Shown: in pieces, positions 1,872 through 3,154 of the stretch
How positions within the stretch are numbered: position 1 is the stretch's first letter
Layout of the letters: each line of letters starts with the position of its first letter
Virus record (IMG/VR): IMGVR_UViG_3300048032_000599
Span: 1-21,542 of that record
DNA from: a virus
DNA length: 21,542 nucleotides
Reading direction: 5' to 3' (one strand)
Program-made: the position numbers and the translations under genes
The notes under the pieces: generated by a model
Seen by the model: the letters and a program-made list of their open reading frames with translations, nothing else
Databases searched by the model: none
Told to the model about the DNA's origin: nothing

Positions 1872-2357
1872 ATGTTTGGATTGATAACAATGTTACTAAC
1901 AACCCTTGGCGCTACCGGCATGGGATCAATGTTAAAAATAGTCGGTGGCCTAGTACAAAGTATAAGTGATGAAAGAGAAGCAAAAGCAAAACGTGAGATG
2001 GCTCGAGACATGGCAATGTCTAACGCAGACCTTAAATTTCAACAAACGGTATTCGGAAATTCTTCAGATCCCGAAGCAAACTTATTTACTCGGGCTACTC
2101 GCAGGCTCATTGCTCTTATCGGGATGCTCAACTTTGCGACCATATCCATTCTTTGCACCCTCTACCCCAGCGTCGAGCTCGTCACCTTCACACCACCAGA
2201 AAACAAAGAAGCCATTTCACTTATTTGGGGACTCATTAAATTCCCAAGTGGTGCCGACATCACGACCTCAATCACGACGGGACACATTTCTCTTGTTTCA
2301 ATCGCCACTTTGGGAGCAATAGTTGGTTTCTACTTCACTCCTGGCGGTAAAAGATAA
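1872..2357 (+). CDS. Holin-like 2-3 TM protein (GTA_holin_3TM-like)
   Basis: From ATG 1872 the product is 161 residues. ATGs at 1920 and 1929 are alternatives, and the upstream in-frame ATG at 1800 lies before the late box, so it is less likely. After a basic/acidic helical stretch (ISDEREAKAKREMARD) come a TM segment (RRLIALIGMLNFATISILCTLYP), a loop, and a C-terminal TM ending LGAIVGFYFTPGGKR. The R-rich entry to TM1 and the IVGFYF-x-x-G-x-R ending resemble the GTA-type three-TM holin family. That is a resemblance seen by eye, not a search result. The expected role is membrane permeabilisation at lysis. The stop overlaps the next start (TAATG). The 2090-2290 stretch is about 50% GC, well above the local AT-rich background, and also encodes a second open frame. 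Confidence 0.6.
   Translation: MFGLITMLLTTLGATGMGSMLKIVGGLVQSISDEREAKAKREMARDMAMSNADLKFQQTVFGNSSDPEANLFTRATRRLIALIGMLNFATISILCTLYPSVELVTFTPPENKEAISLIWGLIKFPSGADITTSITTGHISLVSIATLGAIVGFYFTPGGKR
1969..2322 (+). CDS. Candidate nested Rz1-like outer-membrane lipoprotein (o-spanin-like), +1 frame inside the holin-like gene
   Basis: A second frame, +1 to the holin-like gene, is open from GTG 1966/ATG 1969 to TAG 2320-2322. From codon 2059 it has a good bacterial lipoprotein signal: a short n-region with Lys, the hydrophobic core YLLGLLAGSLLL, and lipobox L-L-S-G-C with Cys encoded at 2125-2127. The remaining roughly 65 residues are Pro/Ser-rich (RPYPFFAPSTPASSSSP). This is the layout of Rz1-type o-spanins, which in lambda are also nested +1 in another lysis gene. 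The elevated GC and atypical codon choice of the holin frame here fit a dual-coding constraint. The weak point is the start: ATG 1969 gives a 52-residue leader, while a start near the signal would need a rare codon (ATT 2059). It could be chance. Confidence 0.35.
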   Translation: MKEKQKQNVRWLETWQCLTQTLNFNKRYSEILQIPKQTYLLGLLAGSLLLSGCSTLRPYPFFAPSTPASSSSPSHHQKTKKPFHLFGDSLNSQVVPTSRPQSRRDTFLLFQSPLWEQ

Positions 2358-2578
2358 TGCTTTCGAAACTCATTCTTTTTGTTCTTGCTCTAACAGTTGT
2401 TGGATGTTTCTATCTACAGACTCAACAGACAATTGATTTAGAAAATAAAATTGAATCTCTTGAATCAGATATCGTAAACATTAACGAAACAATCGATGAG
2501 TTCGATGAAGTTTTTATTCTTTTAATTCAAGAAATAAGAAAAGAAAATAGCCAAAATTTAGCACATTATTATAAATAA
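2357..2578 (+). CDS. TM/coiled-coil protein, possible i-spanin-like or lipoprotein, 73 aa
   Basis: A 73-residue protein starting MLSKLILFVLALTVVGC. It is a short N-terminal hydrophobic segment followed by a coiled coil rich in Leu/Ile/Glu/Asn (about residues 25-62). The VVGC at residues 14-17 fits a lipobox, so it could be lipid-anchored. Without processing it would be a type II membrane protein with a periplasmic coiled coil, which is the architecture of an i-spanin. Its start overlaps the stop of the holin-like gene (TAATG), so coupling to lysis is plausible. The function is inferred from layout only. Confidence 0.65.
   Translation: MLSKLILFVLALTVVGCFYLQTQQTIDLENKIESLESDIVNINETIDEFDEVFILLIQEIRKENSQNLAHYYK
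2570..2577 (+). promoter_or_regulatory. T4-like late promoter box TATAAATA (plus)
   Basis: An exact TATAAATA overlapping the last codons of the 73-residue gene, five bases before the ATG at 2583. The box-to-ATG spacing is the same as for the late box at 1859-1866. Confidence 0.5.
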
Positions 2579-2582
2579 TAAT

Positions 2583-2867
2583 ATGACTGGCGATATACTC
2601 AATTTTATTCAATCTGTTGGAGTACCAATCACGGTGGCTTTAGCTACTGGAGGATTTTTATTCTTAATTCTTAAATTTATTTTAAGTCAAGTTACAGATC
2701 AAATAAAAGGTATTTCAAACTCTTTACTTTCACTTGAAAACAAGTGTGACGTTATGAATAACGATATCGTAAAAATCGATGCTCTTTTTTCAAGTGCATT
2801 TAATGTAGAACCAAACCTTGACCGCATTGCAGCGAGTGAAGGTAAAGAAGATTGTAGGGACGACTAA
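2583..2867 (+). CDS. TM plus coiled-coil protein, paralogue A, 94 aa
   Basis: A 94-residue protein with a short N-terminal amphipathic segment (MTGDILNFIQSVGVPITVAL), one TM span (about residues 15-35) and a coiled coil with the pattern LENKCDVMNNDIVKID. The N-terminal Gly-x-Pro-(I/V) into a TM resembles the small YvrJ-type proteins, but only loosely. The next gene on the same strand has the same layout and a matching coiled-coil phrase, so the two look like diverged tandem paralogues. The stop overlaps the next start (TAATG). Function is unknown. Late expression is suggested by the late box immediately upstream. Confidence 0.7.
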   Translation: MTGDILNFIQSVGVPITVALATGGFLFLILKFILSQVTDQIKGISNSLLSLENKCDVMNNDIVKIDALFSSAFNVEPNLDRIAASEGKEDCRDD

Positions 2868-3154
2868 TGAGCGGAAGAGATTTTACATTCTGGGCCGATA
2901 CAATCCAAACATTTGGATTCCCTGTTATTGCATTACTTTTAACCGGTTATTTTATTTGGTACATTTGGAAATGGGTAATCAAAGAAGTAAGACCAGCGCT
3001 GAGTTCTGCAGGTAGTTCACTTGGAAAACTTAAAAGACAAATTCAAGCACTTGATAATGATATGATTCGCTTGAATATGAAGCTTAAGATTTTAATTCAA
3101 GAAAGACATATCACAGATAAGCATAGAACAACGGATGAGCTTCAAGGAAAATAG
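2867..3154 (+). CDS. TM plus coiled-coil protein, paralogue B, 95 aa
   Basis: A 95-residue protein with an N-terminal amphipathic stretch (FTFWADTIQTFGFPVIALLL), an aromatic-rich TM (about residues 17-38, including YFIWYIWKWV), then a basic coiled coil (LKRQIQALDNDMIRLN). It aligns by eye with the preceding gene at the Gly-x-Pro entry to the TM and in the coiled coil (LDNDMIRLN against MNNDIVKID). It overlaps the previous stop (TAATG), and its end overlaps the start of the next gene by 20 bases. It is probably a small membrane protein that oligomerises. No specific function can be assigned. Confidence 0.7.
   Translation: MSGRDFTFWADTIQTFGFPVIALLLTGYFIWYIWKWVIKEVRPALSSAGSSLGKLKRQIQALDNDMIRLNMKLKILIQERHITDKHRTTDELQGK

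Follow-up and report, generated by a model that had tools for sequence, protein, structure and literature searches.

Two-component spanins are classed by how the gene of the outer-membrane component (o-spanin) lies relative to that of the inner-membrane component (i-spanin): embedded, overlapping or separate (PMC6139136, PMC12596118). Among 677 phages surveyed, no spanin was found in 91, and 196 of 528 o-spanins were unannotated (PMC6139136). Lambda Rz1 is a short lipoprotein of the outer membrane whose mature part is rich in Pro and Ser; it is read in the +1 frame and located wholly within another lysis gene. The nested lipoprotein gene described here shares this layout, including a mature part in the range of about 40–65 residues and a position at roughly 0.4–0.9 of the host ORF. 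However, its host encodes a multi-TM holin-like protein instead of a single-TM i-spanin, and the nested product has neither the penta-proline stretch of Rz1 nor detectable sequence homology to it. The separated spanins PseT.3/PseT.2 of T4 offer a second comparison, with the same two-component logic; the 21.5-kb record studied here also carries T4-type genes (T4 RNase H, ribonucleotide reductase subunits, a SegE-like GIY-YIG nuclease). By contrast, the T4 o-spanin gene stands alone, whereas the candidate presented here is nested in a holin-like gene. We found no description of an o-spanin within a holin gene in the open-access literature, and an o-spanin held there rather than in an i-spanin gene appears to be undescribed. 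Such a gene would add a fourth arrangement to the known ones. Moreover, holin-nested frames could explain some of the phages seemingly devoid of spanins, since nested frames escape gene callers.

The window, that is the entire stretch of 21,542 nucleotides that was analysed, contains the following features around this locus.

1872..2357, plus strand: holin-like host gene, 161 aa (ATG at 1872, stop at 2355–2357)
2059..2322, plus strand: nested lipoprotein gene, candidate o-spanin, precursor of about 87 aa (+1 frame, stop TAG at 2320–2322)
2113..2127, plus strand: lipobox L-L-S-G-C in the +1 frame (Cys codon TGC at 2125–2127)
2125..2319, plus strand: mature lipoprotein, 65 residues including the Cys, rich in Ser, Pro and Gln, net positive
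2357..2578, plus strand: ORF of 73 aa with a predicted N-in TM segment and a coiled coil, overlapping the holin stop (TAATG)

The initial annotation had proposed a +1 frame inside the holin-like gene with an LLSGC lipobox, a mature part of some 65 residues and a stop at 2320, and each of these elements was found in place. Translation of the frame, which spans about 0.39–0.93 of the host ORF, yields ILQIPKQTYLLGLLAGSLLLSGC followed by STLRPYPFFAPSTPASSSSPSHHQKTKKPFHLFGDSLNSQVVPTSRPQSRRDTFLLFQSPLWEQ. No hydrophobic segment, and hence no second TM, occurs beyond the signal peptide of the window product. The Ser at position +2 after the lipobox Cys leads us to expect sorting to the outer membrane. 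Across the members of the two families introduced below, the mature part measures 49–84 residues, and the Cys is in most cases followed by S, V, A, L or Q rather than D.

The host protein combines a Gly-rich hydrophobic N-terminal helix, a charged helix and two strong C-terminal hydrophobic (TM) segments, compared with which the N-terminal one is weaker; its C-terminus is basic (PGGKR). The matching ATG serves as start in relatives (MFGLITM/MFGLVTM). No convincing Pfam or PHROG model matched the protein. Its layout is that of GTA_holin_3TM (PF11351) and other 3-TM holins, namely a Gly-rich hydrophobic N-terminal segment, a charged middle and two C-terminal TM segments. However, the profile is matched only below threshold: two of 23 family members gave sub-threshold hits (best 0.046), none of the 23 reached the Pfam gathering score, and four related records gave no match. 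We thus infer a holin from topology and a very weak Pfam match. An AlphaFold model was poor (pLDDT 60), and Foldseek returned no matches for it. Searches of cultured phages gave no homologue for the window protein at E up to 1e-5 or for locus L016 at E up to 1. With L084, the founding member of family B (see below), two very weak matches were obtained and taken as possible outgroups: Roseobacter phage CRP-7 gp70 and Vibrio phage 2.275.O NVP2275O_289 (25% and 16% identical as aligned). The +1 frames of both are full of stops and contain no nested gene, so that the nested gene belongs to two clades and not to all such holins.

Family A consists of the window and 80 IMG/VR loci (proteins 68–100% identical; 72 distinct DNA sequences). 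Not one of the 72 has a +1 stop in codon columns 49–128 (about 80 codons), +1 stops being frequent in columns 2–48 and 129–146; the +2 frame has many stops in columns 49–128 and across most of the gene. For 25 representatives with less than 85% DNA identity, within-gene synonymous permutation predicted 67 ± 6 stops in the +1 frame (minimum 49 in 500 trials), codon usage taken from outside the overlap predicted 109, and even the overlap's own codon usage predicted 39; none is seen. A 40%-identical relative on a gammaproteobacterial MAG contig, L084, served as lead to 80 further loci (L160–L239), with which it forms family B. The proteins of this family are about 40–46% identical to that of the window and correspond to 67 distinct DNA sequences, and on one representative contig the neighbouring genes are of podovirus type (head-tail adaptor, scaffold, major head and tail proteins). 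Codons 39–137 (99 codons) are free of +1 stops in all 67, with 36.8 expected for 12 representatives and none observed. The frame is likewise open in twelve additional loci, retrieved with L083 and other queries. These counts show that purifying selection maintains the +1 frame in two lineages of phages that are divergent from each other, and openness in homologues, a check put forward with the initial annotation, was seen in every distinct sequence of both families. The carriers are two groups of marine bacteriophages. Both frames are constrained despite divergence to about 40% identity of the host proteins and across very different genome contexts.

Depression of synonymous sites in the holin frame, another check proposed earlier, was also evident. 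Fourfold divergence in family A falls from 0.655 before the overlap to 0.303 in the signal/lipobox region and then climbs to 0.50 in the mature part and 0.66 at the C-terminus; the corresponding values of family B are 0.652 outside, 0.477, 0.388 and 0.60. A strict lipobox is present in 19 of 25 family A and 10 of 12 family B representatives, as compared with 2.5 and 1.0 expected after synonymous recoding that avoids +1 stops. Among distinct sequences the strict form occurs in 60 of 72 (family A) and 52 of 67 (family B), and a relaxed form in 70 of 72 and 64 of 67. In each of the 35 family A representatives inspected, position −1 of the lipobox is supplied by a host Gly codon that is either GGG or GGC; GGA and GGT, which would introduce Glu or Val, are absent. 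Codon-level evidence of this kind shows that selection maintains the lipoprotein signal and the lipobox. Chance or a composition artefact as the source of the open frame is ruled out by the codon permutation, the +2-frame control and the lipobox tests.

In family B members L177, L183, L184 and L214 the usual nested Cys is lost or its lipobox is weakened. Six codons upstream, such members carry another lipobox (LGGC, LVGC), so that the lipidation site has apparently been relocated within the dual-coded frame, a shift that would make little sense if lipidation were dispensable. The families thereby illustrate how a lipobox may change its position within a frame that is under constraint.

The GC content of positions 2101–2280 had been given as 48–52%, with AT-rich genes downstream. 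We measured 50.0% for this segment, 47.7% for 2059–2322, 30.5% for 2357–2867 and 36.9% for the whole record, in which only 0.4% of 264-base windows reach 47.7%. GC3 in family A is 0.37 before the overlap, 0.42–0.53 inside and 0.38 after it. Within the overlap the share of TTA among Leu codons drops from 0.19 to 0.04 and that of CTC rises from 0.17 to 0.54, a shift that is expected because TTA, CTA and CTG before A would create +1 stops. Of the two origins initially considered for the composition shift, dual-coding constraint is supported by the GC3 profile and the Leu codons. A transferred GC island is ruled out, as in family A GC3 climbs within the overlap and drops again after it. The GC rise, read from these codon patterns, is a consequence of dual coding.

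The shifted GC and codon usage of the region could be taken to mean that there is no second gene and that codon bias, composition or RNA structure accounts for the open frame and the conserved codons. The tests refute this reading, which we regard as scarcely credible: stops are predicted under the region's own biased codon usage but are not seen, +2 stops are common over the same stretch, the lipobox is retained or relocated, and family B is equally constrained without a clear rise in GC3. Stops in the +1 frame, a lack of synonymous constraint or a GC rise tracking only the holin frame had been named at the outset as observations that would speak against nesting; none of the three was made. 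The nested lipoprotein gene is thus real, far beyond chance, on the joint evidence of the open +1 frame, constraint at fourfold sites, lipobox retention and a GC profile that fits dual coding.

Initiation of the nested gene is likely to differ between groups. No canonical start codon was found near the signal peptide of the window product; here and in some relatives only AUU, AUC or AUA is present nearby. Codon 2059 is ATT in the window and its homologue is ATG in sister L003, with ATC at 2068 as an alternative. Thus, non-AUG initiation is predicted for the window, probably at AUU 2059. Group C of family A (about a dozen representatives with one extra codon) has an ATG after GGAG, and in family B an ATG is found in 15 of 18 representatives, most of those examined having a strong GGGAGG-type Shine-Dalgarno sequence (up to −11 kcal/mol). 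A third set has Asp-Lys or Asp-Thr at this site and nearly always keeps GAT, so that ATA is retained (apparent exception, L080). In family A loci L009, L012, L024, L028 and L041 the +1-frame ATA lies at host Asp61, in several cases preceded by GGAG; it lies close to the nested signal peptide, in a stretch that offers no ATG, and is a candidate AUA start. AUA starts are very unusual in bacteria. No single conserved start codon was found: family B and group C have AUG behind a Shine-Dalgarno sequence, most members of another group have AUA, and the window has AUU.

The best explanation of the nested product is an Rz1-like o-spanin, to which we assign a probability of roughly 0.7. The lipoprotein architecture on which this assignment had first been made was borne out; the spanin function is plausible. 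By motif match the product has an N-terminal Sec/Lsp lipoprotein signal with lipobox, and its predicted periplasmic domain is short and lacks a C-terminal TM, which rules out a u-spanin. Embedded o-spanins match it in length, Pro/Ser-rich mature part, lack of a C-terminal TM, +1 frame and position (PMC6139136). PHROG profiles matched nested products weakly, several Rz-like spanin families among them; the spanin profile phrog_456 recurred in 7 of 27 products (best 0.02), which may reflect the signal peptide only. A crude scan of 42-kb and 142-kb relatives revealed no other convincing short lipoprotein gene. We propose that the precursor would be exported by Sec, lipidated on the Cys and sorted to the outer membrane. 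Late in infection, the o-spanin would pair with an inner-membrane partner encoded elsewhere and so span the periplasm, and the inner and outer membranes would be fused after holin triggering and peptidoglycan cutting. Nesting in the holin gene would place both products on one late mRNA, and the weak AUU start at 2059 may keep the nested output below that of the holin.

Upstream of the holin gene, L068 carries a cell wall hydrolase (Hydrolase_2, PF07486; L068:2128-2556) with an N-terminal hydrophobic segment, and similar ORFs precede the holin gene in L024 and L041. The L068 enzyme is a candidate endolysin for these phages. An SLT enzyme is encoded elsewhere in the 142-kb relative.

The nested product might instead be a genuine lipoprotein for superinfection exclusion or receptor masking, like Cor of phi80/N15 or Llp of T5, which are likewise small lipoproteins encoded by phages with Gram-negative hosts. 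This view is compatible with the weak matches of 5 of 27 members to a Cor profile (best E 0.16, none significant) and with the lack of a conserved i-spanin neighbour. Exclusion proteins, however, usually act early and Cor and Llp are not nested in holins, whereas a gene located inside a holin-like one is expected to be expressed late, along with lysis. Spanin profiles also match more members, and slightly better, and the arrangement is identical in two very different genome contexts. We therefore consider an exclusion role unlikely.

Antiholins are often encoded within holin genes (PMC9025707), which raises the question of a lipoprotein that regulates its holin, as antiholin or lysis timer, and does not act at the outer membrane. 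In favour of this, every copy that was seen stays with its holin even where the other neighbours differ. Conservation nevertheless centres on the lipobox, the residue after the Cys is of the kind described above rather than D, and embedded antiholins are, to our knowledge, in-frame holin variants and not lipoproteins. A regulatory role is thus quite improbable.

An o-spanin of a two-component system would be paired with an i-spanin encoded in the same genome. The initial annotation had joined the 2357 ORF to the locus as the i-spanin of a compact holin/o-spanin/i-spanin cassette, a proposal that did not hold up. The ORF is confined to the three closest relatives (L001–L003), contains a lipobox-like VVGC, and its weak Rz-like match, phrog_739, is uninformative because this profile also responds in all 14 control genomes. 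No N-in TM and coiled-coil gene is a constant holin neighbour across relatives. The 2357 ORF is thus ruled out as a conserved cassette i-spanin; it is possibly a lineage-specific one. L009 (4761-5006) and its relatives encode an 82-aa N-in TM and coiled-coil protein near the holin, a possible lineage-specific analogue of the 2357 product. Two adjacent plus-strand paralogues of phrog_18771 (2583-2867 and 2867-3154), with a single TM and a coiled coil and predicted to be N-out, are syntenic with the holin in many relatives; the second has a relative in Methylophilales phage Melnitz.

The host protein itself could be the i-spanin of an ordinary embedded pair, given that the position and +1 frame of the nested gene match lambda Rz/Rz1 and that no other conserved i-spanin candidate was found beside the gene. 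Yet i-spanins have a single TM and a periplasmic C-terminal domain. The two strong C-terminal hydrophobic segments of the host, its weaker N-terminal one and its basic C-terminus instead place the charged helix, by prediction, in the cytoplasm. On this topology the host is not the i-spanin that an embedded (EOS/EIS) architecture demands, and we judge such a pair very improbable. It is tempting to speculate, although we hold it rather improbable, that the lipoprotein has its inner-membrane partner in the periplasmic loop of the holin itself, the two proteins forming a self-contained lysis unit without a separate i-spanin. If true, the DNA of a single gene would encode both the hole and the membrane-spanning fusogen.

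Elsewhere in the window, positions 341-1786 on the minus strand encode an acidic protein of 481 aa and low complexity, in which a basic/hydrophobic motif recurs (KKKKKGFFSKLLGGDDEE, KKKRGLFSFLTGGDDD, KKSSGGGLLSLFG) and for which there was no Pfam or PHROG match. The Ser-rich ORF of 320 aa on the opposite (plus) strand, at 492-1454, probably represents an antisense artefact.
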